Below, piece after piece: positions 4,290 to 33,259 of a DNA stretch of 36,669 nt; positions within the stretch are counted from its first letter, which is position 1, and every line of letters begins with the position of its first letter. The translations under genes were made by a program, and so were the position numbers. Source of the DNA: Candidatus Methanoperedens sp. (GTDB lineage: Archaea; Halobacteriota; Methanosarcinia; Methanosarcinales; Methanoperedenaceae). Where the stretch lies: the NCBI GenBank assembly GCA_026552855.1, contig JAPMTX010000157.1:1-36669 (forward strand), given 5' to 3'. Below the pieces are notes generated by a model. That model had not been told where the DNA came from. It did not search any database and worked only from the letters and a program-made list of their open reading frames with translations.

Positions 4290-5246
4290 TTACAGGTTGC
4301 ATAACCACCGGCATAGGGAAGCGACCTGGTTTGCATCAGTCAAGTTGGCAGCGTTGCTAAGCGTACCGTCTTCCAATTGAAGCCAGATTTCTTCAGCCAT
4401 ACTATTTTCAATCGCAGCTCCGACAAAGAATAAGTGGGGCGAAAGCCCACGATCCGCAAATACCAGTCTTATGCGGGAAAGGGATGTTCTTGCTGTTTTC
4501 CAGTGCTCATCCGCCCCGGCGGGATCTATGCCGCCCTTAAGTTCTCCAAGTGCAATGTAAAGAGCAGGCTCTCCATAGCTAACGGAAAGTTCCTGACAAC
4601 GACAATTGAAAAGGCACAAGTCCACGTTTTTCTTCAAAAATGGCACAGTAAGATTATATCTGACAGTCCGATTTCGACCGTCGCTTGACCAACTAAGCCC
4701 CTTTACATCCAACTCTATATCGGGGTCGTCTCCTGTTCCTTGTATCCATGTATTGCTCATGGAAGAAAGCCATTGATATGAAATTCCTGCAACTGAAAGA
4801 GTAGCAATAATTGCGCGAGTAAGCTTGCGTTGTGCCATTGCTCCGCCCACATTTCGCATAGATCCGCCTAATGCGTCCCCTCTTGTCAGAAGGAATCGAA
4901 AGACCAGCTCTTCAACAAAGTTCGGTCCGGCTGGCTCAAGGAACTGTTTTATCAATCCTTGTATCGCTTCCTCTTTGTCTTGCTGCTCCATATGTCCCGC
5001 AGCCTTATCCGAAACGCCAGATGCAGTCAATAAAGCAGCCTGTATTCCAGGAATATCGACCAATGAGGCAGGGGTTGCGGCTTGAGTTGCTGCTGCTTTT
5101 AGTGCCCTTGCTTCTTCGATGAATGGCGTTGCTCTACGGTTCCTTTCAAGCGCCAGGGCAACGAAACCAGCCCGTGTCTCCTCATAAGTTGTTACAAGAC
5201 TTTTGCTACTGGTTAAATGCTGGCGATGTGGTTTATCTGTGGGCAT
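4290..5246 (-). CDS. AvaI/BsoBI-family type II restriction endonuclease
   Basis: The region [19 protein letters not shown] is characteristic of the AvaI/BsoBI endonucleases, which cut CYCGRG. Counting from the chosen start, the PD-(D/E)XK centre would be D209, E235 and K237 (V-D-L-C ... G-E-L-K), with spacing like that of BsoBI. Upstream in-frame ATGs exist at 5273 and 5261. I prefer 5246 because this ATG overlaps the methyltransferase stop as TAATG and has GGAG nine bases ahead. Its length, about 318 residues, matches the family. It is translationally coupled downstream of its methyltransferase, so protection is made before the toxic nuclease. The exact recognition site of this homologue is inferred only. 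Confidence 0.85.
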
Positions 5247-6748
5247 TATATTTTTCTCCATACATACACGCATTTTCGCAAAGGATCACGCCCATGCTCA
5301 CCCATTTGCTGGCTGCTGTTACCTTTGCCGTTCGGCAGTACAAGAATATTTTCAACACGGAATCCCAGCTTTTCAGCTATAGATGAGAGTATCATATCTA
5401 CTGAGACGCTTGCGCCATCGTAACGAACATTGTCATTGACCATGAATAAGGGTGCATCCTGTTTCATCACGCGCGAACATTCAGCGATAACGCATGCCAT
5501 TTCATAAAAGTAACCCCGTACCATCCTGGGGATGCCGTTGTTGTTCAGCTTACCCTGCTCCTTTTGATGTTCCAGGTACTGCAAGATAGCCTGTAGCAAC
5601 TCCTGCCGATCCGCGGCAGCTATAGCGTTCGCCCATTGGGGATTAATGGTCAGCAAGTTTTTGGCATGGTTCTCAACAGTACAGCTTAGCATTTGCTGCC
5701 TGAGGTTGATGAGTTCTTTCTCGTCCACGCCAAGCAGCGCCAGTTCCAGGGCATAAGTCCGTGTATAGTCATAACGATTACAGTACGGGGGAGAGGTTAC
5801 GATGGCATCGTATGAATTACACGGCAGCGCTGGCATTACATCCAGACATGAACCCTGAAAAAGATGGATATTGCCCTGAGTGTGCTCCTCCAGATGTCCA
5901 CTGCCCAGCTTCAGGTCATGCAAAATCTCCTCTATCTTCGCGCAGATTGCCTGTTCGAAGTTAAGGATATGCCCCTTATTGAATGGTTTTCCTCCGTTCC
6001 TGCGTCCAGACCGATCATCCCACCGAAGATACTGACCATCTTTACGTGTGTAACTGATGGACTCCAGGACGCACAGCAGGGCAAAACGTAAGACAATCTG
6101 AACCCGTTCGTTCTCCTGCTGCAGCGTACCCATGTACCGCTCGATTGCATCGGATGTCTCTGCCGGGTACGCGCCGTCAGTAATTCGCAGTTTGGGCAGG
6201 GGATATCTCACCTGTGATTGCTTCCACGGACTGGTTTTCAACCATTGTCTGATAGCAGCAAAATCATCGTCTGTAAACTCTCTTTCCAAGCACAACCTGG
6301 TGGCAATGATCTGCTGTCCTATGGGAAGCAGTTCGATACAATCAACATCCATGCCTACAACACTGGCTGCAAACAGGGTCGTACCGCTCCCTGCGAACGG
6401 GTCCAAAACTTTACCGGAAGCAATCCCGTACCGGCAAAGCAGATACTCCACAAGAGGAGCGGAAAACGCTTCCTTGTATTTGTACCAGCGATAAGATGCC
6501 ATTTTTTTGTTTGCCTGAAAGCTGACAAGTTGTCGCGTAAGGGACGGTTGAACTATAAACTTGTCCTGGAAGTGCTGCGATAGATTAAAATCAATATCAT
6601 CAATCCCGGATAGAGCTTGCATCTGCCCGGGGACTACTATTTCGGGTTTCTCAGTCAGGTTTCCAGAGGAGATCATGGCTTCTGTGCTGAATTCAAACAG
6701 GTTCATCTCCACAGTTTTATTCTTTTTCTGGGTTAAACAGGATACCAT
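5246..6748 (-). CDS. DNA methyltransferase, probably N4-cytosine, of the AvaI-like system
   Basis: A 500-residue methyltransferase. Motif I is DPFAGSGTT at 116-124 and motif IV is [13 protein letters not shown] with SPPY at 319-322. SPPY is the usual form for N4-cytosine enzymes. Motif I comes before motif IV, with about 200 residues between them that probably carry target recognition, unlike the methyltransferase at 1374. GAGGT six bases before ATG supports the start at 6748; an ATG at 6706 is an alternative. It is the first gene of a two-gene unit with the endonuclease and shares one base with it. It most likely methylates the site cut by the AvaI-like enzyme. Confidence 0.88.
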
Positions 6749-19574: not shown

Positions 19575-21500
19575 ATGAAAGAAGAGATTAGTAGAAATAA
19601 TGAGATTAGTGAAAATGATAAATTCCGAATGAACAGAAGAACCTTTGTGAAGTTAGCCGGCACTGCCATAGGTGCAGCAGCGTTGGGCATTGGCATAAGG
19701 AATATTCCAGGTGTATCTGCCGCATCTCCACCAGTTCCTCTGGATCCCTTGACCCTGGCGAAATATGTGGATGACTTGGTCGTTCCACCGGAATTTACAC
19801 CCATTGATAATCCATCGTACCCTGATGCAGATTACTATGGAATAACGATGAGACAGTTCACTCAAAAGCTGCATAGAGATTTCCCAAGTGATACAACGGT
19901 GTGGGGTTACGGTGCTGCTGGCAATGATGCTACATCGCACTTCCCTGGCTTCACCATAAAGGCAACGAAAGGTAAACCGGTAGTTGTCAAGTATATAAAT
20001 AACCTTCCAACCACCCATCTCCTGCCGATAGATACAACCCTTTTCCACGGTGATCTGTCACTTATAAATAATCCGGTCCGGGTGGTGCCTCATTTGCATG
20101 GAGGATTCACTCCGCCGCAGTTCGATGGGCATCCGGAAGCCTGGTTCACATCGGATCAATTAAATGCAGTACACGGTACCCACTACGCATCTATGCCTGA
20201 TGCGGCACCAAACGAATGCATATTCTCCTATCCCAACCAGCAGCAGGCTACAACAGTCTGGTATCATGATCACGGGATGGGCATCACGCGACTGAATGTT
20301 TATGCCGGGCTGGCTGGCTTCTACCTTATCAGGGATAATCTTGATACAGGTGTTGAGGGCGAGGGTCTCAATATCCCCAAAGGGAATTATGAGATTCCAA
20401 TAGTGATCCAGGATAGAATGTTCGATACAAGCGGTCAACTGCTATACCCTGTCCAGGATCCCCTGCCTGCAGGCTCTGAGGCACCTCCTGTCTGGGTGCC
20501 GGAGTTCTTTGGAAACATTGCTGTTGTGAATGGCGTAGTCTTCCCGCGCTTAATAGTGGAAACCAGGAGATATAGATTCAGACTCCTGAACGGCTCAAAC
20601 GCCAGGTTCTACCAGTTGAGGTTCGTTAACCAAACTACAAAACAACCGGCACCGTTCTATGTAATCGGGACCGATGGAGGCTTACTTCCCAAGCCCGTGA
20701 AGCTCAATACTATCATGCTGGCACCGGCTGAACGCGCAGATATCATTTTTGACTTTACTGGCATTCCTAAGGGAACAGAGTTTATCCTTACGAACAATGC
20801 TAAAGCGCCATATCCGAGCGGTGGAGACTTAGACCTTCCAGAGATCATGAAATTCATGGTTGCCAATGATCCTACAGTTCCGGATACTACAACTCAGCCC
20901 TCAGGACTCGTGCTGCCCCCGGTTCCAAGACTCACTCCGACTCTTGGGGCGCCTATGAGGGAAATAGTCCTCAAAGAAAAAGAGGACCCAATAACGGGTT
21001 TCCCTGTCATGGTGCTGCTCAACAACAGGCTTTTCGCTGACCCGGTCGAAGAGAACCCGAAAGAAGGAGATACCGAGATCTGGCAGTTCATCAACCTGAC
21101 TCCGGATGCCCATCCCATGCATATGCATCTTGTCCAGTTCCAGGTGTATAACAGGCAGTTCTTCAATCATCCGTTATACCTGCAAGACTGGCTCGCATGG
21201 ATTGCAGCAGGTCGTCCGGCATCAACGAAACCAGTGCTTGCGAATTACCTTCTGGGGACTCCAATCAAACCTCCAGCCGAAGAGATGGGGTGGAAGGATA
21301 CTGCCAAGGCGTTCCCCGCCCAGATCCTGCGGGTAATCGCCAAGTTCGATATTCCTCCTGGCTCACAAAAGCTAAGGGAATATGCAGATCCTGCCGTATT
21401 AGGGACCTCTGGGGACAACTATCAGTACGTCTACCACTGCCATATCTTGGAGCATGAAGACAACGAGATGATGCGCCCGTATGATGTAGTTCCGAAGTGA
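19575..21500 (+). CDS. Tat-exported multicopper oxidase (CotA/laccase-like), first copy
   Basis: A 641-residue protein with twin arginines at R21-R22 in MNRRTFVKLAG and a hydrophobic stretch to about residue 50: a Tat signal, so the enzyme is folded with copper before export. Four copper-ligand clusters are complete: HLHGG (173-177), WYHDHGMG (229-236), HPMHMH near 505-512 and HCHILEHEDNEM (621-632), where C622 and M632 would bind type 1 copper. The enzyme couples oxidation of a metal ion or aromatic to reduction of O2; the substrate is unknown. GGAG precedes the ATG. Unusual for an apparently anaerobic host, it may protect against oxygen or copper. A paralogue follows. Confidence 0.92.
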   Translation: MKEEISRNNEISENDKFRMNRRTFVKLAGTAIGAAALGIGIRNIPGVSAASPPVPLDPLTLAKYVDDLVVPPEFTPIDNPSYPDADYYGITMRQFTQKLHRDFPSDTTVWGYGAAGNDATSHFPGFTIKATKGKPVVVKYINNLPTTHLLPIDTTLFHGDLSLINNPVRVVPHLHGGFTPPQFDGHPEAWFTSDQLNAVHGTHYASMPDAAPNECIFSYPNQQQATTVWYHDHGMGITRLNVYAGLAGFYLIRDNLDTGVEGEGLNIPKGNYEIPIVIQDRMFDTSGQLLYPVQDPLPAGSEAPPVWVPEFFGNIAVVNGVVFPRLIVETRRYRFRLLNGSNARFYQLRFVNQTTKQPAPFYVIGTDGGLLPKPVKLNTIMLAPAERADIIFDFTGIPKGTEFILTNNAKAPYPSGGDLDLPEIMKFMVANDPTVPDTTTQPSGLVLPPVPRLTPTLGAPMREIVLKEKEDPITGFPVMVLLNNRLFADPVEENPKEGDTEIWQFINLTPDAHPMHMHLVQFQVYNRQFFNHPLYLQDWLAWIAAGRPASTKPVLANYLLGTPIKPPAEEMGWKDTAKAFPAQILRVIAKFDIPPGSQKLREYADPAVLGTSGDNYQYVYHCHILEHEDNEMMRPYDVVPK

Positions 21501-21538
21501 ATACCTGGTTAACAGGTATTCCTCTTTTTCTTTTTTTA
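21500..21538 (+). terminator. Hairpin terminator after the first oxidase
   Basis: AATACCTG (21500-21507) and CAGGTATT (21513-21520) form a perfect 8-bp stem with a 5-base loop, followed by a long pyrimidine tract rich in T. The stem includes the last base of the stop codon. Confidence 0.65.
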
Positions 21539-21669
21539 AGCACGTAATTCCAGAACAGGATTATCAAAATAGTTCTTCTTATTGAAAATAAAGTTCAACA
21601 GCGTAAGTCCTACGTTAATTTTAAATATTCTGGATGCGCTATTTTTAGTAGTAGGAATGTTAGTTAGAT

Positions 21670-21745
21670 TTTCTTGAAAAGAAAGCGGGGTAAATGAGGG
21701 ATGGGATCGGAGACGCACTTTCTTGAAAGAAAAGTGGAGTAGGAT
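21670..21745 (+). repeat. Imperfect direct repeat in the leader of the second oxidase
   Basis: TTTTCTTGAAAAGAAAGCGG (about 21670) recurs in altered form as CTTTCTTGAAAGAAAAGTGG (about 21719). Each copy is itself nearly palindromic (TTTCTT/AAGAAA) and ends in a purine stretch that looks like a ribosome-binding site, but only the second is followed by the gene's ATG. It may be a regulator site pair or a duplicated leader. Confidence 0.4.
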
Positions 21746-24025
21746 ATGAAACATAAAACTGAAATGAGTGGTGGCGACGTCTCGAGTAAAGACGATATGT
21801 ACAGGATGAATAGGAGAACATTTGTGAAGTTGGCTGGTGCAACCGCGGGTGCCTTAGCATTGGGCAGGGTCTTAGGTTTTGATACACTTCCGACAGCGCG
21901 TGCATTTTACAATAGTACCGGGCTGACAAAGTTCACCCAGCCACTTCGCGGCGTCTTCCCGATTGATCCCAATGGCATTCCGGTAGCAGTGCCGGACGGA
22001 ATACGAAATTGGAAAGGAAGTAAAATTCCAGCTCAACATTACACGATTGACATCAATCAGTACCAGGACGCCTTGCATCCCAGCTTTGCCCCTGGCAGCA
22101 CGACTCTGCGCGGCTACCATTCGCGGAAAAATCTGGGCGGGGCTCCGCCGCAGAGACACCTCGGCGGCATTATCGTGGCGGAAAGAGGCATACCGGTGCA
22201 GATCACCGTCCAGAACAACCTGACTGGCAACCATCCTCTTCCGGTGGACACCTCCATCATGGGGGCGTCCGATGGAGTGAACCGCGTGACGAATCACCTT
22301 CACGGAGGTGAGGTCCCGTGGATCAGCGACGGTGGACCGTTCTCCTGGTTTGATAATGCCGGCAACTACGGCGAGAGCGCGCAAAAAGGTGCACTGAACA
22401 TCTATAAGGTCATGAACCCGAAGCTCAAGCCTGGTCAAGCCGAGTATTACTACCCCAACAACCAGAGCGCCCGGATGGAGTGGTATCATGATCATGCTGT
22501 TGGCATCACGCGCATTAACGCATACTCAGGAATTGCCTCTGCCTACATAATCCGCGATCTCTTTGAGAGGGGATTGCGACTCTTCGGTCTGCCCGACTTT
22601 ATCGAAAAAGGCGGACGCGAGATACCGATTATCATCCAGGACAAAATCTTTGTAGACAAAAATACGATTGGAACCGTGGATCCCACTTGGCCAGGACCAA
22701 CCTCTACCGGCAGCCTGTGGTACCCGCACGCTTACGATAGGTGGGACAGCGCGCCTGGCTCAACTCAGCCCGACCCCTCTGTCATCCCGGAGATGTTCGG
22801 CGACACGATGCTTGCGAACGGCGTGGTCTTCCCCTTTGCGCCAGTGGAACCGCGCCGCTATCGCCTGCGCATCCTCAACGCCTGCCAGGCCCGCGTCCTC
22901 AATCTGCAGCTTTACGAAGACGACGGCACCGGGAAGGCGGGCACGACCAAACCGGGTCCCGACTTCCTCGTCATAGGAACAGAAGGCGGTTTCCTGGCAA
23001 AGCCAGCGCTAGTCAAGCATTCGCAGATGATATATCTATCGGACGGTGTCTCAGTTGATCCCGCGAATCCCGGCGGAAGTCTCATCACTGCCCCTGCGGA
23101 GCGCTGGGACATTATCGTAGACTTTAGCGGATTTGCTGGGAAAAAACTCATCCTTTACAACGATGCGCCTGCACCGTACCCCGGAGGCGACGCGGTCAAT
23201 GATTATCAGAACGCTAACGTCGGACCCGACTCGCGGAATATCATGCGATTTGATGTTGCCACGACGATCACAGGTGAGGCGGATAAGAAGCTGCGTATCA
23301 GCCCGGCGACACCTCTCGCGCTCAATAAGCTTTCCTTAATCAATCCGTTCCTGGTGCCTCTGAACACTTCCGTGATCGACCCGGCAACTGGCAATGTGAC
23401 AATCCCTTCCATAGCTAAAGTTGTCCGCCAGTTAACCTTGAACGAAGTCTTCGATCAATACGGCCGCCTGATCCAGATGCTGGGCACGAATCTGACAGTA
23501 CCCCTGCCGACGGGATTCACGATGGACCCGGCAACCCCGGACGCTCCTAACAATTACTCCCGAGCGTACGTAGACCCGACGACGGAAACACCGACAGCCG
23601 GCACGGTGGAGGTCTGGCAGATTGCCAATCTCACAGGCGATACGCACCCCATACATTTCCATCTGGTGAATGTCCAGCTCCTCGCGAGGCAGCCGTTCAT
23701 AGACACATCTGGCGTGTACCATTATTCTAACGGCGTGCCATCCTACACTGGGCCTGCCCGCGGTCCTGATCCAACCGAGCTGGGATGGAAGGAAACGGTC
23801 AAGATGAATCCGGGCGAGGTTACTACCGTCATTATGAAATTCCACCTGCCCAGGGTTCCCTTCAAAGTTCCAGCAAGCCCGCGCACAGGTGGGAATGAAT
23901 ACGTGTGGCACTGCCACATCCTGGAGCACGAAGAGCATGATATGATGCGACCCTTGGTGGTGATAGGAGATAATGAGCAAGGGGATAATGAGCAAGGGGA
24001 TAATGAGCAAGGGGATAATGAGTAA
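21746..24025 (+). CDS. Tat-exported multicopper oxidase, second copy with repeat tail
   Basis: A 759-residue paralogue of the preceding oxidase. The N terminus again has MNRRTFVKLAG with twin arginines at 23-24, and a Tat signal to about residue 53. Copper clusters: HLHGGEVPW, WYHDHAVGIT, HPIHFH and HCHILEHEEHDM (722-733), where C723 and M733 would bind type 1 copper. It is about 120 residues longer than the first copy, mainly from extra loops between domains 1 and 3 and the tail. The C terminus ends in four copies of G-D-N-E-Q (the last cut short by the stop), an acidic, disordered tail made by a 15-bp minisatellite. Its codon use is more GC-rich than in the first copy, hinting at a different history. 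Confidence 0.92.
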   Translation: MKHKTEMSGGDVSSKDDMYRMNRRTFVKLAGATAGALALGRVLGFDTLPTARAFYNSTGLTKFTQPLRGVFPIDPNGIPVAVPDGIRNWKGSKIPAQHYTIDINQYQDALHPSFAPGSTTLRGYHSRKNLGGAPPQRHLGGIIVAERGIPVQITVQNNLTGNHPLPVDTSIMGASDGVNRVTNHLHGGEVPWISDGGPFSWFDNAGNYGESAQKGALNIYKVMNPKLKPGQAEYYYPNNQSARMEWYHDHAVGITRINAYSGIASAYIIRDLFERGLRLFGLPDFIEKGGREIPIIIQDKIFVDKNTIGTVDPTWPGPTSTGSLWYPHAYDRWDSAPGSTQPDPSVIPEMFGDTMLANGVVFPFAPVEPRRYRLRILNACQARVLNLQLYEDDGTGKAGTTKPGPDFLVIGTEGGFLAKPALVKHSQMIYLSDGVSVDPANPGGSLITAPAERWDIIVDFSGFAGKKLILYNDAPAPYPGGDAVNDYQNANVGPDSRNIMRFDVATTITGEADKKLRISPATPLALNKLSLINPFLVPLNTSVIDPATGNVTIPSIAKVVRQLTLNEVFDQYGRLIQMLGTNLTVPLPTGFTMDPATPDAPNNYSRAYVDPTTETPTAGTVEVWQIANLTGDTHPIHFHLVNVQLLARQPFIDTSGVYHYSNGVPSYTGPARGPDPTELGWKETVKMNPGEVTTVIMKFHLPRVPFKVPASPRTGGNEYVWHCHILEHEEHDMMRPLVVIGDNEQGDNEQGDNEQGDNE

Positions 24026-24031
24026 GGGGAT
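23966..24031 (+). repeat. 15-bp minisatellite, four units, at the end of the second oxidase
   Basis: Units at 23966, 23981, 23996 and 24011 follow GGGGATAATGAGCAA, the first with GGA instead of GGG and the fourth with TAA instead of CAA. That one change creates the stop codon. A partial fifth unit (GGGGAT) follows. Confidence 0.9.
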
Positions 24032-24098
24032 ATCACGATATGATACGACCCTTGAATTGTGACGCAGGTAATTTTAGTAGAAAAAGGATCTAGAGCTA

Positions 24099-24155
24099 GC
24101 AAACAACAACGGCAGGCCGTCTTAAAAACGGGTCTGCCGTTGTTTGTTGTTGCCA
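24099..24155 (+). terminator. Strong hairpin terminator after the second oxidase
   Basis: AACAACGGCAG (24105-24115) pairs perfectly with CTGCCGTTGTT (24134-24144), and the flanking CAAA/TTTG partly extend the stem. T-rich sequence follows. The rest of 24156-24340 shows no gene or motif I can name. Confidence 0.6.
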
Positions 24156-24347
24156 ATGTTTTTGAAGTAGCATAAACCCTGTACAAACCTTTCCTGCGTT
24201 CCTATCATTCATTATCACCTCCCTGTATTTCCCTTTATAATGATGACCTGTTAAACATTATTGAACTCATTGTATTTAACTTTCGCCTGTATGAATGGGG
24301 ATACCAGCTCAGGGACCTTATCTGGTTTCCTCATGCTGTTAGTTAAG

Positions 24348-24399
24348 TTTATATATCATAACTACTTACTTAAGGTTAGTAACCCCAGGTGACTAACCT
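24348..24399 (+). promoter_or_regulatory. Promoter and operator of the stress operon
   Basis: A TATA box, TTTATATATC (24348-24357), predicts transcription from about 24380. A perfect inverted repeat, AGGTTAGT (24373-24380) and ACTAACCT (24392-24399), covers that point, and a further GTTAG half lies at 24339-24343 on the other side of the TATA box. Archaeoglobus HSR1 binds paired CTAAC/GTTAG elements at the same kind of operon, so this is a good candidate operator for autorepression. Confidence 0.65.
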
Positions 24400-24415
24400 G
24401 AGGTGAAGTACGGAT

Positions 24416-25048
24416 ATGGAATCAGCACAACTGCTTGACATACTCGGGAACGAGAACCGAAGGAAAATCCTGCATCTGTTAGCGAGCAGACCCTGCTATA
24501 TGAGCGAAATAGCAGAGCGGCTGGATGTGGGAGCAAAAGCGGTACTCGGACACCTTGAGCTCCTTGAGCGTACAGGTCTGATCGAAGCCAGCGTTGATGA
24601 ACAGCGGCGCAAGTATTTCCACATCGCAGATAACCTGCGGCTGGAAGTATCTGTGTCGCCGTTCTCCTTTGAGGTGAGCACGACGACTGTCGCCTTCTCG
24701 GCTGCGCCAAAAGTGCAGGAAGAGGACAGCCATGCGCTCTCTGACCTGCGATCCCATTACATGGAAATACAGGGACTTCTGGAACACAGGCAGCGGATAA
24801 TGCTGGAATACCAGAATGTTCAGAGTGAAATAACCGAAATGATGGGAGCATGCATGGATGCTATCGAGAGGATGGCGGAGAATTACATAGAGGCTGAGAT
24901 ACTCTATGCTCTGCTTAAGAAGCCCATGGATAAACGGGCGCTGTCAATTCAGCTCGGGATACCCGAATACGTGCTTGAGGAATATCTGGCAAGAATGGAA
25001 AGAGAACAGACTATAAAAATGGACGAAAAGAACTACTGTATATGCTAA
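24416..25048 (+). CDS. HSR1-like winged-helix heat-shock regulator
   Basis: A 210-residue ArsR-type regulator. The N-terminal winged helix (about 5-70) includes LGNENRRKILHLLASRPCYMSEIAERL and VLGHLELLERTGLIE. A long helical linker (105-155) probably dimerises. A second winged-helix-like part (160-210) has YALLKKPMDKRALSIQLGIPEYVLEEYL. GAGGTGA nine bases ahead supports the start. Regulator-Hsp20-CDC48 is the order of the HSR1 operon of Archaeoglobus fulgidus (AF1298-AF1296), where HSR1 represses its own operon until heat shock. The same function is inferred from this order and from the palindrome at the promoter. Confidence 0.82.
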   Translation: MESAQLLDILGNENRRKILHLLASRPCYMSEIAERLDVGAKAVLGHLELLERTGLIEASVDEQRRKYFHIADNLRLEVSVSPFSFEVSTTTVAFSAAPKVQEEDSHALSDLRSHYMEIQGLLEHRQRIMLEYQNVQSEITEMMGACMDAIERMAENYIEAEILYALLKKPMDKRALSIQLGIPEYVLEEYLARMEREQTIKMDEKNYCIC

Positions 25049-25093
25049 AGTATATACATCCAGACTAAAATAAACATATGGAGGTTAGAAAAA

Positions 25094-25585
25094 ATGTTCA
25101 GAACATGGAGAAGACCCGACAGGGGTATTTTCGACGAGTTCGAAAAGGAGTTTGAGGAACTGAATGAGTCGGTAAACCGCATGATGCGCTCACTCGGAGA
25201 GGAGCCGTTGGTTTACGGGTTCAGCCTTCAGGTAGGACCTGACGGCGTGCCGCACGTGCAGCGCTTCGGGAACGTCATGCCGACTGTCAGAGGTGAGAAC
25301 GTGAGAGAACCTTTCACAAGCTCGATGGTAGATGAGAAAAACAATGAATTCAACATAACTGTAGAAATGCCGGGAATCCAGAAAGAGGACATAGAGGTGA
25401 ACGCGACCGAGAGCGACGTGGTCATCAAAGCCGAAGGAGAGCGGAAATACTACAAGAACATAAGGATACCTGCCCCGGTCGATCCTGAGAGCGCGAAGGC
25501 AAAGTACAACAACGGCGTACTGGAAGTGACTTTTAAGCTCAAAGAACCCTCAAAACCAAAAGGAAAACCGGTAAAAATCGAATAA
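25094..25585 (+). CDS. Small heat-shock protein Hsp20
   Basis: A 163-residue ATP-independent chaperone. Residues 1-78 are the variable N-terminal arm. The alpha-crystallin domain runs from about 79 to the end: FNITVEMPGIQKEDIEVNATESDVVIKAEG in pieces, then KYNNGVLEVTF, the usual NGVLEV signature. The C terminus ends KGKPVKIE, with an I/V-x-I/V-like anchor. GGAGG precedes the ATG. It holds unfolded proteins in the cytoplasm, and its neighbours, the CDC48 unfoldases, could then process them. Confidence 0.93.
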   Translation: MFRTWRRPDRGIFDEFEKEFEELNESVNRMMRSLGEEPLVYGFSLQVGPDGVPHVQRFGNVMPTVRGENVREPFTSSMVDEKNNEFNITVEMPGIQKEDIEVNATESDVVIKAEGERKYYKNIRIPAPVDPESAKAKYNNGVLEVTFKLKEPSKPKGKPVKIE

Positions 25586-25619
25586 ATAAATAGAAACAAA
25601 CACTCTAAAAATCAAATAT

Positions 25620-27812
25620 ATGTTATCCACAGACAGAAAAGACAAGGTTGTAACCTTAAAAGTAGGCGAAGCAAAATCATACGATGCTGGCAGGGGCATC
25701 GCCCGTATCGATCCTGAGATCACCTACAGGCTCGGACTTGCGACCGGGGACGTAATCGGGATCGAGGGTACGAAAAAGACTGCCGCGCTCGTATGGCCGG
25801 GTTATCCCGAGGACAGCAACACCGGGATAATACGGATAGACGGGACTGTGAGACGGAACGCTGGAGCAGGCATCGATGACAGGGTGAAGGTGCGGAAGAT
25901 CCAGACAGCGCCTGCTGAGAAGATACTGTTCGCACCCACCCAGCCCCTGAAGATACAGGGAGGAGAGACGTATCTGGCTCACAGCCTTGAGGGCAGGGTG
26001 ATATCACGCGGTGATGCGGTCGAACTGAACATCATGGGTCGCCGCGTTGATCTTGTGGCAATCTCGACAAAGCCTGCCATAGATTCGGTCATAATCACTG
26101 CAGGCACGCAGATAGAAATAAGCGAGAGACCTGCAAAAGATATCTCAGCCATTCCCAGGGTCTCGTATGAAGACATAGGAGGGCTGGGAGACGAAGTAAG
26201 GAAAGTAAGGGAGATGATAGAGCTTCCGCTGCGCCATCCTGAGATCTTCGAACGCCTCGGCGTTGAGGCTCCGAAGGGAGTTTTACTGCACGGTCCTCCA
26301 GGCACGGGAAAAACCCTGCTGGCAAAAGCCCTCGCCTCTGAGACGAACGCCAACTTCCTGACTCTCAGCGGTCCTGAGATCATGAGCAAATTCTACGGCG
26401 AATCCGAGGAGAGGCTGCGGGATATTTTCAAGCAGGCAGAGGATAACGCGCCGAGCATCATACTAATCGACGAGATAGACAGCATCGCCCCGAAGAGAGA
26501 AGAGGTCACGGGCGAAGTGGAGCGGCGCGTTGTAGCGCAGCTGCTGGCTGTAATGGACGGTCTAAAAGCAAGAGGAAAGGTCGTGGTCATAGGAGCGACG
26601 AACAGACCGCATGCCATAGACCCTGCGCTTCGCCGCCCCGGAAGGTTTGACCGGGAGATCGAGATAGGAGTACCCGACAGGAAAGCCAGGCTTGAGATTC
26701 TGCAGATCCACTCGCGCGGAATGCCACTGGCTGAGGATGTGAGCCTGGAGAAATTCGCAGACCTGACGCACGGTTTCGTCGGCGCCGACCTTGCTGCGCT
26801 TGCGCGCGAGGCTGCTATATGGTCTATCAGACGGGTGCTTCCTGAGATAGATCTTGATGTGGAGAGCATACCTGCCGAGATACTTAACAAGCTCGTTGTT
26901 ACTGCGGCAGATTTCAACAACGCCATGCGTGAGATGACACCCTCAGCGCTGCGCGAGGTGTTCATAGAATCACCCAATGTGCACTGGAGCGATATAGGCG
27001 GGCTTGAGAGCGCAAAACAGGAATTGAAGGAAGCAGTGGAGTGGCCGCTCCGGTATCCAGCGCTCTTCAAGCAGCTCAACGCCAAGCCGCCGAAGGGCAT
27101 CCTGCTCTACGGTCCGCCGGGCACTGGAAAAACGCTGCTGGCAAAAGCAGTCGCCACCGAGAGCGAAGCCAATTTCATAAGCGTGAAGGGACCTGAGTTC
27201 CTGAGCAAATGGGTAGGGGAAAGCGAAAAAGCGGTGCGTGAGACGTTCCGGAAAGCCAAGCAGGCTGCGCCGTGCATAATCTTTTTTGACGAGATAGACT
27301 CTATAACCCCGACGCGCGGCACAGGCTCTGACTCCCATGTGACAGAGCGGGTCATCAGCCAGATGCTCTCAGAGATTGACGGCATCGAGGAGCTGCACAA
27401 TGTCACGGTCATCGCAGCCACGAACAGACCAGATATGATCGATGCTGCGCTGCTCCGCCCTGGCAGGCTTGACCGCCTGGTTTACGTGACCCCGCCGGAT
27501 GAGAGCGCAAGGTACGAAATATTCAAGATCCATCTCTCAAACAAGCCTCTTGAGAGCGATGTTGACCTGAACATACTTGCAAGGGATACTGACGGCTTCA
27601 CGGGTGCGGATATCGCATCCATATGCAACGAAGCCACGATGCTGGCGATAAGGGAGTACGTAACTTCCGGGAAGCCGACAGACGAGGAATCCATCAAGCA
27701 GATCAAGATCGGATACCATCATCTCAAGGACGCCATGAGAAAGATAAAACCGTATTACCAGAAGGAGACCGAGAAATACAAAAAGATATCGGAGAACTTT
27801 ATATATCAGTAG
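25620..27812 (+). CDS. CDC48/VAT-type AAA+ unfoldase, first copy
   Basis: A 730-residue double-ring ATPase. N-domain (1-180): double-psi barrel with [10 protein letters not shown] and [14 protein letters not shown]1: Walker A GPPGTGKT at 225-232 and Walker [24 protein letters not shown]2: Walker A near 498-505, Walker [16 protein letters not shown], then [20 protein letters not shown] with the arginine finger. It unfolds tagged or aggregated proteins, often feeding the proteasome. It lies 34 bp after hsp20 and is presumably in the same transcript. The C terminus ends FIYQ, close to the hydrophobic-Tyr tail by which such ATPases dock on 20S proteasomes. Confidence 0.95.
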
Positions 27813-27906
27813 ATATATGAGTACATATAGAGGAATCGAAGGCAGCCCGGGCAGTTCATGTTATATTTTATGTACGATAAAGTATGTGATATAAATACGA
27901 ATAAAC

Positions 27907-30120
27907 ATGAATGAAAAAATAATGCTTCGTGTAGCGGAAGCGCATCACAGGGACGTCGGCAGGGATATCGCAAGGATAGATAGGAGCCTGATGGAAAAAC
28001 TCGGTATCCTGAGCGGCGATGTCATCCTTGTGATAGGCAAGGAAAAAGCATGCGCCATAGCCGGAGCGGGCTACCCCGAGGATGAGGAACAGGAACTGAT
28101 ACGCATAGACGGAAGTATAAGGACAAATGCCCGCATTGGGATAGATGACAAAGTGTTTGTCCAGAAATCTACCGTCATGCAGGCGAACAGGGTAGTGCTT
28201 GCGCCGACGCAGCAGGTGCGCCTTGTAGGTGGACCGCAGTACTTGCAGCGCGTACTTGAGGGCAGACCTCTTATGAAGGGGCAGCGCCTCCGCGTAGAGA
28301 CCGTTAGCAACCCTCTCTCGTTCATCGTTGTCTCGACCCAGCCACCGGGGCCTGTTGTTGTTTCAAGGAACACAAGCCTTGTCGTTAAAGAGCAGGTCAT
28401 GGAAGAGCTGGAGATGCGCCCTACACACCTTACGTATGAGGATATCGGGGGGCTGCGGCGCGAGATAGGACTGATAAGGGAGATGATAGAGCTTCCACTC
28501 CGGCATCCTGAGCTTTTCCAAAAACTGGGCATTGACCCGCCGAAAGGGGTGCTGCTGCATGGTCCTCCGGGTACAGGTAAAACGATGATCGCGAAGGCTG
28601 TGGCTAACGAGACGGACGCGAATTTCGTTTCGATAAGCGGTCCTGAGATCATGAGTAAATACTACGGGGAGAGCGAGAAGCATATACGTGAGATATTTGA
28701 GGAGGCTGAGAAGACAGCCCCGACCATTATATTCATAGATGAGATAGACAGCATTGCACCGAAGAGGGAAGAGGTCACGGGCGAGGTGGAAAGGCGCGTT
28801 GTAGCTCAGTTGTTATCGCTTATGGACGGCTTGAAATCGCGCGGTCAGGTGATAGTCATTGCCGCCACCAACAGACCGAACGCAATCGACCCCGCCCTTC
28901 GCCGCGGCGGCAGGTTTGACCGCGAGATCGAGATAGGAATCCCTGACAGGCTCGGCAGGTTTGATGTGCTTCAGATACACACACGCGGCATGCCGCTTTC
29001 AGAGGACATGGCTGAAGGGAAAGGGATGCGCGAGATTGCCGATATGACGCACGGCTTCGTTGGCGCGGACATATCCTCACTGTGCAAGGAAGCTGCAATG
29101 CACGCTATCAGGCTTATCCTGCCGAAAATAAATATCCAGGAGGAGATACCGCCTGAGATCATGGAGAGGCTGGTCGTAACAAAGGACGATTTTTACGAGG
29201 CTTTCCGCAACATCGAGCCCTCAGCCATGCGCGAGGTGTATATCGAGGTGCCTGAGGTGAGATGGAGCAATATCGGAGGGCTTGAATCCGTGAAGCAGGA
29301 GCTTATTGAGGCTGTTGAGTGGCCGCTTAAATACCCTGAGGCTTTTGAGGCAATAAATACGCGACCTCCGAAAGGTGTGCTGCTGTTCGGACCTCCGGGG
29401 ACAGGGAAAACACTGCTCGCAAAAGCTATAGCCACAGAGAGCCTGGCCAACTTCATAAGCATCAAGGGTCCTGAGCTTCTGAGCAAATACGTGGGCGAGT
29501 CTGAGCGCATAGTCAGGGAGACGTTCCGGAAGGCGCGCCAGGCAGCGCCTGCTATCATTTTCTTTGACGAGATAGACTCCATCGTACCCGCGCGCGGGTC
29601 TTCTTTTGATTCCGGTGTTACCGAGAGGGTGGTGAGCCAGATACTCACCGAGCTTGACGGGCTTGAGGAACTAAAGAACGTTGTCGTGGTGGCAGCGACT
29701 AACCGACCTGAGCTTATCGACCCTGCGCTTCTCCGCCCGGGCAGGCTTGACAGGCTCATCTACATAAGACCGCCTGACCAGAAAGAGAGAGAAATGATAT
29801 TCGGTATCCATCTGAGAGGAAAACCTTTATCTGCAGATATCAACATGGAGAGACTTGCTGAAAGAGCCGAGAGGTACGTCGGCGCCGATATTGAGGCTAT
29901 ATGCAGAGAAGCTGCCATGCTGGCTCTTCGCGACTTTATCAAGCCTGGCATGGAGAGAGAGGAAGTAAAGGAATTATCGTCTGCGATTATTATCGGGGAC
30001 GAACATTTTGAGAAAGCTTTTAATATGGTGAGACCTACTCCGTGGAATCTGAAGGAGTACGAAGAGTTGATGGCTTTTTCGAAAGCTATCGACAGAGTAA
30101 AAAAGAAAAAGGAAAACTAA
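27907..30120 (+). CDS. CDC48/VAT-type AAA+ unfoldase, second copy
   Basis: A 737-residue paralogue of the preceding gene with the same layout. The N-domain has [16 protein letters not shown] and [14 protein letters not shown]1 has Walker A near 219-226 and [18 protein letters not shown]2 has Walker A near 495-502 and [15 protein letters not shown]. It ends in a lysine-rich tail (VKKKKEN), so it lacks the docking tail of the first copy and may work with different partners. The 94 bp between the copies holds AT-rich stretches (TTATATTTTA near 27861, GATATAAATA near 27888) that could be a second promoter. No clear Shine-Dalgarno is seen. Tandem duplication followed by divergence is the simplest origin. 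Confidence 0.95.
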
Positions 30121-30122
30121 TA

Positions 30123-30551
30123 ATGAAAAAGAGTAAAGATATTGATGATTTCATAAAATGGCTGGAAGAGGCTGTCGACGGGATGCAGGATGAAGGCGGC
30201 GTATCAAAGCGACCGATATTCATTGATATTTCAATAAACCTGTGCCCGGTCATGGATTATGAGCCTGCCGACTTTTGCGTCCAGAGGGAGAGCAAAGTAC
30301 CTGTGGATGTTCTTGAGACCGAGAAAAATATACATGCAGTGGTCGGGCTTGCCGGGATGAAGAAGGAAGATATCAGGCTCATCTGCACCGGGAAGACGCT
30401 TGAGATAAGTAACGAGCAGGGGACGCTGAAAGAGATTATCGAGCTGCCTGCAAAGGTTAACAGGACCGGCATGAGGACCACGTACGAGAATGGTGTCCTT
30501 GAGGTAGTTTTTAATAAATCAAAGAAACGGGTTAAAAAGAATAATTATTAA
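30123..30551 (+). CDS. Divergent Hsp20/alpha-crystallin-like protein
   Basis: A 142-residue protein starting MKKSKDIDDFIKWLEEAVDG at an ATG two bases after the CDC48 stop. A longer in-frame start at 30042 would sit inside the CDC48 gene and is unlikely. Residues 60-135 resemble an alpha-crystallin domain: VPVDVLETEKNIHAVVGLAGMKKEDIRL, with KTLEIS and YENGVLEVVF. The C terminus is very basic (KSKKRVKKNNY) and lacks the I-x-I anchor, so it may not form large oligomers. It may be an adaptor for the adjacent CDC48 rather than a free chaperone; this is inference from position. Confidence 0.82.
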   Translation: MKKSKDIDDFIKWLEEAVDGMQDEGGVSKRPIFIDISINLCPVMDYEPADFCVQRESKVPVDVLETEKNIHAVVGLAGMKKEDIRLICTGKTLEISNEQGTLKEIIELPAKVNRTGMRTTYENGVLEVVFNKSKKRVKKNNY

Positions 30552-30577: not shown

Positions 30578-30952
30578 ATGGCAAAAGTAGAAGTAGTGAT
30601 GGACGAACGTACGCTCATCGCCAGGCATATGCTCAATCTCAGGCTTGTAAAACTATCCTGGGCTCTATTCTTCATACTGGTCGGCGGAAGCTGGATCCTT
30701 GAGGGCATGGGAAGGATAGACAACGCGCAGAAGTGGGCGCTTATATACGCAGGGAGCGGCGCGATACTTCTTTTGTTGAATCTCCTGCGAATCATATGGA
30801 GGCTCAACATCAGCAGGTTCACGGTCGGGCTCGGCGTGCTGGGTCTGCTGTTCGGGCTGGCAAAGTACTATGCACTGGGCGATTTTTCGATATGGGCTGC
30901 GGTTGTGCTGGTCATCGGCGTTTTTATGCTGTTCGAGGTGCTGAGGAGATAG
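30578..30952 (+). CDS. Small membrane protein of unknown function
   Basis: A 124-residue protein with about four hydrophobic segments (roughly 26-45, 52-70, 78-97 and 102-121), short loops and a charged N terminus (MAKVEVVMDERTLIARH). I do not recognise a family; it resembles short DUF-type envelope proteins. It starts 26 bp after the Hsp20-like gene and probably ends the stress operon, so a role in membrane stress is possible but not shown. Confidence 0.72.
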   Translation: MAKVEVVMDERTLIARHMLNLRLVKLSWALFFILVGGSWILEGMGRIDNAQKWALIYAGSGAILLLLNLLRIIWRLNISRFTVGLGVLGLLFGLAKYYALGDFSIWAAVVLVIGVFMLFEVLRR

Positions 30953-30962
30953 CAACGACTTA

Positions 30963-31042
30963 GAACACGGATTGCACGGATGAACGGATGCGCACGGATA
31001 CGGAATCCGTGAAGATCCGTCCAATCCGTGTCATCCGTGTTC
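30963..31042. repeat. Complete ATCCGTG-type hairpin repeat
   Basis: GAACACGGAT at the left end faces ATCCGTGTTC at the right. Between them are CACGGAT units on the left and ATCCGT(G/C) units on the right of a centre near GATACGGAATCC. Same family as 6984-7064. It lies just after the stress operon and might act in transcript ending. Confidence 0.8.
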
Positions 31043-31102
31043 AATTGCAGTAACCCAGACATCTGCTTTATCGGCGTTCATCTGCGGGCTAATAACGATT
31101 AC

Positions 31103-31200
31103 GATTCCGTCACGGAATCAATATTGTAAAATTCCGTAACGGCATTTAACCTGATAAAACCCGTTACGGGTTTGTTGTCGATAAAATCCGTAACGGGAAT
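31103..31200. repeat. 27-bp phased palindrome array 1 (four units)
   Basis: CCGTNACGG occurs at 31107, 31134, 31161 and 31188, exactly 27 bp apart. Centre bases are C, A, T, A. The first and third are embedded in 17-bp palindromes (GATTCCGT/ACGGAATC; AAACCCGT/ACGGGTTT). The 18-bp spacers differ and are AT-rich. The rest of 30953-31403 holds the hairpin repeat before it, a small CAGGGA/TCCCTG hairpin at 31300-31322 and the dif-like site. Confidence 0.88.
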
Positions 31201-31347
31201 TAGCACAAACATTTTTATTCAAGTCTCTTATTTTAATTTATAGCGAATCTTCTTCGGCAGGTCTGACCTTTCTATCCTGGGAGTGGACTAAGTCTTATTC
31301 AGGGAAAGATATTTTATCCCTGCCTGCCAGTAGATAGCTACCCCAGC

Positions 31348-31381
31348 AAAATGTCGTATAAGATAGATTATACGACATTTT
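31348..31381. other. dif-like Xer site (14-6-14 palindrome)
   Basis: AAAATGTCGTATAA (31348-31361), spacer GATAGA and TTATACGACATTTT (31368-31381) form perfect 14-bp arms. Two arms around a 6-bp centre with inner ends TAA and TTA is the layout of Xer recombination sites (bacterial dif has ATAA-N6-TTAT). It lies 22 bp before the xerA-like start. A promoter operator or hairpin is the alternative, as a TATA-like run (TTATATATAT) begins at its right end. Confidence 0.6.
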
Positions 31382-31403
31382 TATATATATGGCAGGACAA
31401 TAA

Positions 31404-32249
31404 ATGACTGGTATGCAAAACGATACGCCGCTGGCATTAAAGAAGCTTGAGACTGAAATGAAGCTGAGGGGATTCTCAAAGCAGACCTCCAAAATGTACC
31501 TTTTCTATAATACCAAATTCCTTGCGTACATTAAAAAGCCTCAGGAGGATGTCGATGAGGATGATATAAAGGAATACCTGGCGCACAAGATGTCAGATCA
31601 TTCCCTATCAAATGCCTCGATCTCACTAATCAAAGCCTCGCTGAAATTCTTCTACACCGAAATACTTGGTAAAAACCTGGCGCTTATCAAAACGCCGAAA
31701 GCCTCGAAAAAATTACCTGTCGTACTGACACGCAAAGAGATAAGAGACCTGCTCGATAATACCGAGAACCCAAAGCACAGACTTTTGATCGAACTACTTT
31801 ACTCCACAGGCTTGCGGCTTTCCGAATGTGTCAACCTGAAATACTCAGATCTCGACCTGAACGAAGGAATTGGCTGGGTACGTATGGGGAAAGGCGCGAA
31901 GGACAGGATATTCATTATCTCCGGGATGTTCAGGAGAGACCTGCTGGAATACAGGGAAAAAAGCGGCGCAGATGGGAAAGGATACATATTCTCGATGAGC
32001 GGCAAAAAAATGTCACCACGCGGAATCCAGCATGCGATCAAGAAAGCAGCGAAGCGTGCAGGCATCGAAAAAGATGTGCACGTGCACACGCTGCGCCATT
32101 CCTTCGCCACGCACCTGCTCGATGACGGCGTGGACATAAGGAAGATTCAGACGCTCCTCGGGCATGCGAACCTTCAGACGACGCAGATATACACGCAGGT
32201 CTCAAGCGAGGAGATCAAGAAGATTAAGAGCCCGCTGGATATGCTGTAG
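31404..32249 (+). CDS. xerA: XerA-like tyrosine recombinase
   Basis: A 281-residue recombinase of archaeal XerA size. The N-terminal SAM-like core-binding domain (about 10-100) includes LRGFSKQTSKMYLFYNTKFL. The catalytic set is R138 (STGLRLSE), K163 or K166, H228 and R231 (HTLRHSFATHLL), H254 (LLGHANLQTT) and nucleophile Y263 (QIYTQV). XerA acts at dif to resolve chromosome dimers without a XerC/XerD pair. If transcription starts about 25 bp after the TATA run at 31382-31391, the first codon at 31404 would lie at or before the transcript start, so translation could begin at the ATG at 31413 on a leaderless mRNA. It is flanked by the dif-like site and by arrays of CCGTNACGG. A plasmid-type integrase is less likely given the short length. 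Confidence 0.9.
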   Translation: MTGMQNDTPLALKKLETEMKLRGFSKQTSKMYLFYNTKFLAYIKKPQEDVDEDDIKEYLAHKMSDHSLSNASISLIKASLKFFYTEILGKNLALIKTPKASKKLPVVLTRKEIRDLLDNTENPKHRLLIELLYSTGLRLSECVNLKYSDLDLNEGIGWVRMGKGAKDRIFIISGMFRRDLLEYREKSGADGKGYIFSMSGKKMSPRGIQHAIKKAAKRAGIEKDVHVHTLRHSFATHLLDDGVDIRKIQTLLGHANLQTTQIYTQVSSEEIKKIKSPLDML

Positions 32250-32278
32250 ATTTTTCAAAAGTATCAAGGCGCATAGTT

Positions 32279-32367
32279 GCGTGACGGATTTTTCATCGTC
32301 AATTACCGTTACGGGATGTTTAACATTAAATCCCGTTACGGCATTTTGGCACGATGTCCCGTAACGG
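32279..32367. repeat. 27-bp phased palindrome array 2
   Basis: A degenerate unit, GCGTGACGG, at 32279, then CCGTTACGG at 32306 and 32333 and CCGTAACGG at 32359. Steps are 27, 27 and 26 bp. It starts 30 bp after the xerA stop. Confidence 0.85.
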
Positions 32368-32417
32368 AATATTCAAATCGAAATAGTTTATTTCCTCAAT
32401 ATATCTATTGTAGGAGT

Positions 32418-32473
32418 AGCGGGCAGAGGAGGGGATTATAATGGAAATGAGAAAAGTGATCTTTCTGCCCGCT
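32418..32473 (-). ncRNA. Putative small RNA, stem-loop unit 1
   Basis: AGCGGGCAGA (32418-32427) pairs perfectly with TCTGCCCGCT (32464-32473) around a 36-base loop. On the minus strand a TATA-like TTTTATATCC (32495-32504) lies about 26 bp upstream, placing the transcript start at the stem. Between them is TTCG-N8-CGAA (32477-32492). Just before the 3' arm the minus-strand loop reads CCCCTCC, complementary to Shine-Dalgarno sequences. Unit 2 repeats every one of these parts. The 3' end is not defined. The 628-bp stretch 32250-32877 has no supported gene apart from these units and the arrays. Confidence 0.45.
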
Positions 32474-32572
32474 GCATTCGTACATATGCGAACAGGATAT
32501 AAAAGCTTTAGCTTGCTAGGAACTCTGATGTGATGGCAGCAATTTTGAAGTAGAACCTTTAAAGATAAGATT

Positions 32573-32627
32573 AGTGGGCAGAGGTGGAGTATGGTGGTGG
32601 TATGCAAAAAAAGTTTTTCTGCCCACT
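32573..32627 (-). ncRNA. Putative small RNA, stem-loop unit 2
   Basis: AGTGGGCAGA (32573-32582) pairs with TCTGCCCACT (32618-32627) around a 35-base loop. Against unit 1, the second stem pair after the A-T closing pair has changed on both sides (G-C to A-U or its complement), keeping the stem. TTCG-N8-CGAA recurs at 32632-32647 and a TATA-like CTATATATAC at 32653-32662 on the minus strand. The loop ends CTCCACC before the 3' arm, again Shine-Dalgarno-complementary. Confidence 0.45.
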
Positions 32628-32772
32628 ATAGTTCGCATATATACGAATAAGGGTATATATAGTTTACGTCTTATGTAAAGCTGATAAATTTTGCTCTATC
32701 ATGTCAGCAGGCGATGAAATGCATATATGAGAGCTAGTAAATTCTCTCCTATACTTGTGAAGCAGGTAGAAG

Positions 32773-32835
32773 CCGCAATGGGATTTTTTTAGAACAACCC
32801 CGTTACGGCTTCTATATAAAAACATCCCGTGACGG
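32773..32835. repeat. 27-bp phased palindrome array 3
   Basis: A degenerate unit, CCGCAATGG, at 32773, then CCGTTACGG at 32800 and CCGTGACGG at 32827, again exactly 27 bp apart. It lies between the stem-loop units and the hsdS fragment. A minor hairpin (GAGAG/CTCTC, about 32730-32749) precedes it. Confidence 0.8.
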
Positions 32836-32877
32836 CACTCATGCATAACCTTAAAATCCCGGCACATCTGCTGCTCT

Positions 32878-33012
32878 CTATAATTCGCCTTTAAATGGTT
32901 TAATCAGCACCTCAGGCATCGTATCCAGTTCTACACCGCTCTCTACATGGAGGCGGCGGAGCTTGTCCACTTTCGCCTGAAGGCCGTCGAGATAGGCGAC
33001 GATACGGCGCTG
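32878..33012 (-). pseudogene. 3' fragment of a type I specificity gene hsdS
   Basis: Translating the minus strand gives QRRIVAYLDGLQAKVDKLRR, then LHVESGVELDTMPEVLIKPFKGEL and a stop. This is clearly the last conserved segment of HsdS and is similar throughout to the end of the full gene at 33559-34734 (QRRIVSYLDSLKAKVDELRR). An in-frame TGA lies just upstream, and no start or recognition domain remains. It begins about 17 bases after the hicA stop. It is a leftover of a second hsdS copy or of a duplication. Confidence 0.85.
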
Positions 33013-33031
33013 AGTTGATCAGATATCGCTC

Positions 33032-33259
33032 TTATAATCGATTAAAATCCTCAATCGAATACCCTGATTCTTTTATGATAGCCCTCAGAGTTCCAGTTGG
33101 TATATCCTTTCCTGGATGGTTCGGGACTGTGACCCTTCTTTTTGTAACCGGATTATACCAGATCTCATGGCTGCCCTTGGCATACCTGTCAAAAAAGAAT
33201 CCACCTTTTTTAAGCTTTTTAATAACCGCAGTGGCGGTCATCGAAGGGAGCCTTGTCAT
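33032..33259 (-). CDS. hicA: HicA-type mRNA interferase toxin
   Basis: A 75-residue double-stranded RNA-binding-fold toxin: AVIKKLKKGGFFFDR, then GSHEIW with the catalytic H31, RVTVPNHPGKDIPTGTLRAIIKESG and a final EDF. HicA cleaves mRNA and stops growth until bound by HicB. Its ATG overlaps the hicB stop as ATGA, so it is made only with the antitoxin. Antitoxin-first order is less common in classical hicAB but frequent in archaea. Confidence 0.92.
   Translation of the reverse strand: MTRLPSMTATAVIKKLKKGGFFFDRYAKGSHEIWYNPVTKRRVTVPNHPGKDIPTGTLRAIIKESGYSIEDFNRL

Follow-up and report, generated by a model that had tools for sequence, protein, structure and literature searches.

Archaea have XerA and dif and lack FtsK, so that, according to the literature, their chromosome dimer resolution must be controlled in another way, which is still debated (PMC2958812, PMC8371274). 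P. abyssi XerA is described as recombining dif alone in vitro (PMC2958812). In Thermococcales, dif is described as having conserved AT-rich flanks of ~23 bp, together with flanking inverted repeats that were proposed as partner sites (Cortez et al., PMC2958812). According to the account in PMC2409434, the accessory DNA of the ColE1 cer site measures ~180 bp and includes an 18-bp Arg box, which lies 98 bp from the XerC site; its binding by PepA and ArgR restricts recombination to direct repeats on the same molecule. The Methanoperedens locus analyzed here is, to judge by analogy of its anatomy, a Xer core with accessory DNA, laid out like cer and psi.

The dif-xerA locus and its palindromes

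The window, by which we mean the whole stretch of 36,669 bases that was analyzed, belongs to a genome of 211 contigs (G000), one of a set of 34 Methanoperedens-family genomes (G000 to G033). It holds nine exact copies of the palindrome CCGTNACGG, compared with 0.17 on average and never more than 2 in 100 dinucleotide shuffles, and all nine are confined to 31107-32835. Units with at most one mismatch to CCGTNACGG were chained into arrays; with GCGTGACGG at 32279 included, two chains have four units each and the third has two (Table 1). This variant (first C changed to G) is the commonest type across the family, accounting for 34 of 81 one-mismatch units. Ten of the eleven units claimed in the earlier note were recovered by chaining, whereas the eleventh, at 32773, is weak. 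Both of its mismatches fall inside the otherwise near-invariant part of the core, and it is a relic at best.

Table 1. Features of the dif-xerA locus, in window positions
Feature	Position	Strand	Remarks
Array A	31107..31196	.	Four CCGTNACGG units (31107, 31134, 31161, 31188) at 27-bp steps; on the side of dif away from xerA
AT-rich block	31210..31246	+	Consensus TATTTTTATTCAAACCTCTTATTTTAATTTATAGCGA, from which the window copy departs at 3 positions; lies between array A and dif
dif-like Xer core site	31350..31379	+	AATGTCGTATAA-GATAGA-TTATACGACATT; perfect 12-bp arms, 6-bp spacer; between array A and xerA
Putative xerA TATA box	31380..31389	+	TTTATATATA; adjoins the right arm of dif
xerA	31404..32249	+	Archaeal Xer tyrosine recombinase, 281 aa; NCBIfam NF040815, PF00589, structure 4a8e
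Array B	32279..32367	.	Units at 32279 (GCGTGACGG), 32306, 32333, 32359; directly 3' of the xerA stop codon
Possible decayed unit	32773..32781	.	CCGCAATGG; 27 bp before 32800; two mismatches; weak
Array C	32800..32835	.	Two units (32800, 32827), from chaining

As the earlier note said, the spacers between units differ, and the locus is neither a CRISPR array nor a plain tandem repeat. We rejected the latter because of these differing spacers and the former because only the palindrome and its AT-rich edges recur (9-bp core, 17- to 18-bp spacers), with no constant repeats. No cas genes were recognized by eye in the window's ORF list.

The xerA product scored 267.6 bits against NCBIfam NF040815 (cut-off, 220) and also matched PF00589. 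It aligned at E 3.5e-48 with the solved structure 4a8e, which we take to be P. abyssi XerA, and by eye the alignment covers the R, K, HxxR, H, and Y regions. An archaeal dif comprises 28 bp, made up of two 11-bp arms and a 6-bp spacer. The dif-like site that had been mentioned without a position exists; it has been placed at 31350-31379 and is, by its anatomy, a dif site. Of the 29 family genomes in which xerA was found, 28 have a site of this build upstream of the xerA match, at a distance of no more than 605 bp. We accepted 31 dif loci, namely, these 28 beside xerA, one in G013, and two at contig ends (G011 and G020). Arms are identical in 21 of the 31 sites, and the several arm forms are mostly still complementary.

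Copy number of dif was assessed with one degenerate pattern, common to all genomes, at up to 3 mismatches. The accepted dif was the sole best match at 23 of 31 loci, tied with another place in three genomes (G000, G002, and G007), was beaten in G027 (by C61, with 1 mismatch), and had more than 3 mismatches in four (G010, G017, G020, and G028). The frequency of extra matches was close to that of control matches. Away from the dif locus, G027 (C61, C41, and C117), G009 (C19), G010 (C76), G020 (C42), and G007 (C102) have dif-like sites in which TTTTTG-like spacers recur; these sites are perhaps used by Xer-exploiting mobile elements. A small cysteine-rich ORF (113 to 131 aa), named HNH-nuclease-like by eye, lies between dif and xerA in G003, G010, G017, G018, and G028 and may have been inserted at dif; a 70-aa fragment of it (G010) gave only sub-cut-off Pfam matches. 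G016 carries a second XerA-like gene (C6:27292-28125; 54% identity) with its own dif-like dyads nearby and, in the available sequence, no array within 3 kb.

By eye, the locus looks chromosomal rather than plasmid-borne, with argS and cdc48 in the window and a UbiD-like gene at 17 of 29 relatives' loci. Within 19575-30551, inspection by eye showed a pair of neighboring multicopper-oxidase-like proteins whose start is Tat-like (RRTFVK); after them come an ArsR-like regulator, an Hsp20-like protein, and two Cdc48-like AAA ATPases. Short dispersed CACGGAT/ATCCGTG repeats (30966-31039) lie directly upstream of array A; they also occur near dif in G020 and G023, and similar letters stand beside a stray array on contig C158 of G000. 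Between arrays B and C, there are two diverged elements of the form GGGCAGAGG...CTGCCC with inverted ends (32417-32475 and 32572-32628). GGGCAGAGG is also found downstream of xerA in G002, G007, G021, G026, G027, and G028. These elements are possibly small RNAs; an Rfam scan of 30900-33200 gave no family at gathering score.

Motif, phase, and distribution of the arrays

Across the family, 237 chained units gave a consensus of about AAWTN[C/G]CGTWACG[G/C]NAWTT, a palindrome of roughly 19 bp, in which conservation of the core is partly built in by preselection of units at no more than one mismatch. The conserved site is thus wider than the 9-bp core to which the earlier note had limited it. Among one-mismatch units, 79 of 81 are altered only at the outermost pair, compared with the ~20 that an even spread over eight positions would give.

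The 27-bp step was analyzed without any spacing rule. The sequence up to 2 kb from the 31 dif loci holds 151 exact cores, and of their 120 successive gaps, 61 measured 25 to 28 bp (50 exactly 27 bp), 11 measured 53 to 55 bp, and a few were near 81 and 108; none measured 10 to 23 or 29 to 45 bp. Since the peak at 27 bp appears with no spacing rule, the phase is not a product of chaining. The one 26-bp step reported among the 27-bp steps of the window is real, and 26 bp is also the second commonest near-phase gap family-wide (9 of 61). With ~10.5 bp per helical turn, 27 bp makes 2.6 turns, and adjacent units would face nearly opposite sides of the DNA, as would suit a protein that wraps or oligomerizes along it. 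From the dyad and the phasing together, it is fair to infer that a dimeric protein binds the array units cooperatively.

In G000, exact CCGTNACGG pairs at 26 to 27 bp occur six times at the window locus and once on contig C158 (reversed control, 0). Single cores number 37, against 79 for the reversed control and ~33 expected from base composition (a rough estimate); being near that expectation, they indicate that the phased array, not the core, is special. Exact pairs are present in 24 of 185 genomes of the order, comprising 24 of 34 in the Methanoperedens family and 0 of 151 outside it. In the 34 family genomes, 65 of 67 exact pairs lie within ~6 kb of dif (reversed control pattern, 0). Within the order, exact pairs are thus restricted to the family and lie almost always close to dif, and the arrays are kept in relatives, a positive outcome for the check that had been proposed. 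The two pairs away from dif are on C158 of G000, an assembly with an estimated contamination of 6.5%, and on C101 of G027, ~20 kb off. The C158 pair (2098-2133) lies beside a DNA-methylase-like ORF closely similar, by eye, to window 5246-6748. G014, G025, and G033 (63 to 68% complete) yielded neither xerA nor an accepted dif nor an exact pair.

A wider search for an exact triple pattern in a named genome collection returned 45 stretches, 11 of them from the Methanoperedens family, including Ca. M. nitroreducens ANME-2d and Mnv1. In 10 of these 11, xerA lies inside the fetched stretch. The 34 non-family stretches are GC-rich (0.58-0.76) and by eye mostly consist of near-identical tandem units, and xerA is absent from all of them as fetched. 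A viral collection yielded two stretches, neither with xerA in the stretch, one with identical units and the other with differing units inside a 791-codon open frame. Relatives of this XerA type are uncommon in the neighboring lineages; they were found at E 1e-40 in 1 of 26 other genomes of the order (26 picked of 151) and at E 1e-55 in 8 of 246 genomes of a phylum sample, G000 included. Nine XerA loci outside the family had no arrays within 3 kb in the available sequence, so that the dif-array module seems to be a trait of the Methanoperedens family. In the open-licence PMC literature, no account of a dif palindrome array appeared in titles or abstract beginnings among the matches listed, and a search by the core letters gave no paper.

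Position of the arrays and possible roles

An array of at least two units lies within 1.6 kb at 31 of 31 dif loci, compared with 0 of 3100 first-order Markov shuffles, in a count that, like the distances below, treats the family genomes as independent (shared ancestry uncorrected). Arrays flank dif on both sides at 16 of the 31 loci; among all 31, six had less than 1.6 kb of sequence on one side. Distances were compared for arrays upstream of dif in 25 of the 28 genomes with linked dif and xerA, leaving out G003, whose array is 3.8 kb distant, and also G008 and G032, which lack an upstream array (in G032 the contig end cuts the locus). The array-dif gap has a median of 168 bp and an SD of 70; it is 137 to 175 bp in 17 of 25 genomes and 217 to 430 bp in the other eight. 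It shows no trend with the dif-xerA distance (Spearman 0.03; far versus near genomes, p 1.0). The array-xerA gap has an SD of 190 and rises with that distance (0.82), an arithmetic consequence if the array stays with dif. The interval from dif to xerA is free of cores in all 28 linked genomes, so this comparison passed over no array there.

Two further arrangements bear on the same point. When dif is 200 to 575 bp from xerA (eight genomes), the array is beyond dif in seven, and the eighth, G003, has no close upstream array. G013 is a natural experiment in which xerA moved away and dif and the arrays stayed together, in a draft assembly where a misjoin is possible. Its xerA is on C117 with neither dif nor array beside it (a lone core is 9 kb away), and its dif is on C61 with a six-unit array at a distance of 265 bp, a lone unit at 157 bp, a further pair at ~4.5 kb, and no xerA match. 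Judged from these positions, the arrays belong to dif rather than to xerA. Among the roles that had been offered, accessory sites for dif recombination is the best supported, given arrays at every accepted dif locus and a distance to dif that is independent of the place of xerA. Control of xerA as the main role is not supported, given the separate contigs in G013 and the 28 genomes with no core between dif and xerA.

It is improbable, in our estimate, that the palindromes are operators, that is, repressor or activator sites for xerA transcription, even though array A ends 206 to 250 bp upstream of xerA in 13 of 25 genomes, array B often begins directly after the gene, and the TATA box adjoins dif. 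In all 20 genomes in which dif is near xerA, the right arm passes directly into a TATA-like box, and the box at or across this junction reads TTTATATA in 19 of them and TTAATATA in G007. The far-dif genomes fit operators poorly, as seven of the eight have a separate xerA TATA-like box (by eye) and seven of the eight, as described above, have an array on the far side of dif. The same holds for G013, for the lack of cores between dif and xerA, and for array B, which is downstream of the gene.

A second conserved element accompanies dif at 26 of 31 loci: an AT-rich block of 37 bp, on the side of the array and in a single orientation (at most 10 substitutions). In all but G003 and G008, where no two-unit array lies close upstream of dif, it sits between array and dif. 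It is missing at five loci (G022, G023, G026, G031, and G032); of these, G032 has just 115 bp of upstream sequence. Nine further copies of its 16-base core occur in nine genomes, compared with 2 control matches. In seven genomes, its 30-base pattern (at most 3 mismatches) recovered every dif copy (7 of 7); it also matched at two further places in G002 and at one in G016:C6, compared with 4 control matches. On these counts of extra copies, with the three places below control, a general promoter element was rejected. The block could be a bend, a promoter, or the site of a second protein.

A role in segregation is the strongest rival, and one that we regard as unlikely. Short motifs are bound near the terminus or centromere in matS/MatP and parS/ParB, with matS scattered in the terminus; similarly, centromere- or terminus-organizing arrays might be kept at dif, and their protein would tether or position the dif region. 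Multi-unit palindromes with a flexible unit number suit such a function, as do the arrays on both sides of dif at 16 of 31 loci and those lying kilobases off. However, a centromere has no need of the 137- to 175-bp gap to dif seen in 17 of 25 genomes, and single cores near the base-composition expectation (37 in G000) are unlike scattered matS. Gene content around dif turns over strongly, and among the best 30 neighbor clusters listed, none but xerA recurs widely, the next being UbiD-like (17 of 29 loci, by eye). A NifH/ParA-type ATPase (by eye) is present at only three loci among the clusters listed.

The position at dif and the presence on both sides at about half of the loci (16 of 31) would also be expected of a replication-fork trap, in which a Tus- or RTP-like protein on the arrays halts forks. 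We consider this very improbable: the sites are symmetric and thus have no polarity, and no GC, TGGT, or 3-mer skew switch was seen at dif in 360 kb of G001:C3. The replication-terminus locus that had been suggested likewise found no support in a GC or short-word skew change there. Orc1/Cdc6 genes above cut-off are on contigs other than the dif contig in 8 of 9 draft genomes. In G030, a second Orc1/Cdc6 paralogue is 26 kb from dif, and the dif contig of G005 has a weak partial match (40.7 bits).

We give least credence, and very little, to the arrays being relics of an element inserting at or near dif (IMEX-like or restriction modules). Strong turnover of the genes around dif and the stray C158 pair, with its methylase ORF related to one in the window, would fit such an origin. 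It is difficult to reconcile with arrays at every accepted dif locus, in two genera, with fixed motif and phase, with the absence of widely recurring element genes among the neighbor clusters listed, and with a viral collection that gave just two triple-pattern stretches, both lacking xerA in the stretch.

A proposed accessory module and its relation to known systems

On balance, we judge it somewhat probable that the locus is a chromosomal dif/XerA system with an accessory control module, in which the arrays hold a dimeric host protein, distinct from XerA, that controls XerA/dif recombination. The array core and the dif arm have only a CGTA-like stretch in common, and exact CCGTNACGG cores occur at every dif-arm class. 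Arrays as XerA binding sites were rejected on these grounds, and the unchanged cores point to a binder other than XerA. Two candidates were also set aside. One, which by eye is RHH-like and is encoded near dif in G002, G027, and G029, is present in 11 of 34 genomes and not in G000; the other, an ArsR-like gene, is near xerA in few genomes (G000, G013, and G027).

The layout of cer, the lack of FtsK in archaea, and the partners proposed for dif flanks together suggest that the arrays gate XerA/dif synapsis. A dimeric host DNA-binding protein other than XerA would fill the arrays cooperatively and, with whatever binds the AT-rich block, would fold or wrap the DNA beside dif. The folded complex would limit XerA mainly to dif pairs in direct repeat on one molecule, as in a chromosome dimer, or to the right cell-cycle stage. 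Such gating by the array protein would replace FtsK. In genomes whose xerA TATA box adjoins dif, dif-bound XerA could in addition lower the activity of its own promoter. The activity of P. abyssi XerA alone means that a partner may be dispensable, and the arrays, which vary in unit number and side and have gaps to dif of up to 430 bp, are looser than the arrangement at cer.

A bolder version, possible though somewhat short of evenly likely, is a synaptosome for dimer resolution, in which an undescribed protein would polymerize on the 27-bp-phased palindromes beside dif and supply, with no translocase involved, the direction that FtsK gives to recombination in bacteria. If true, a topological filter of the cer type would be known from a cellular chromosome for the first time, as far as we are aware. 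The array would also serve as bait for the missing XerA partner, as a switch for a recombination assay, and as a sequence marker for dif in draft Methanoperedens genomes. A second set of phased sites at dif, usually at a near-fixed distance, gives the question of archaeal dimer resolution a concrete target.

In comparison with described systems, the locus resembles archaeal XerA/dif of P. abyssi in its single XerA, inverted dif arms, and 6-bp spacer (Cortez et al. 2010, PMC2958812). As reported there, dif is not beside xerA and has short flanks in Thermococcales, whereas in Sulfolobales it is close to xerA and has a 13-bp flank on one side. Methanoperedens-family dif differs in its phased array of a second palindrome, which is not described in the passages of PMC2958812 on archaeal dif. 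XerS/difSL and XerH/difH likewise use one recombinase, and the XerS gene adjoins its own dif; however, XerS needs KOPS-oriented FtsK, and the passages on these systems do not mention arrays of the dif-flanking kind (PMC5357621, PMC2958812). KOPS are described as spread over and polarized along the chromosome (PMC2958812) and differ in sequence from the array, which is confined to dif. The sequences of matS and parS also differ from that of the dif array. The cer and psi sites (ArgR/PepA or ArcA/PepA; PMC2409434, PMC5357621) have a Xer core with accessory DNA, to which, by anatomy, the array 137 to 175 bp from dif in 17 of 25 genomes (217 to 430 bp in eight) may correspond. As described in these sources, they are plasmid-borne, are used by bacterial XerCD, and have one Arg box rather than a 27-bp-phased array; the Methanoperedens-family loci differ further in that arrays often also lie past xerA, on the other side.
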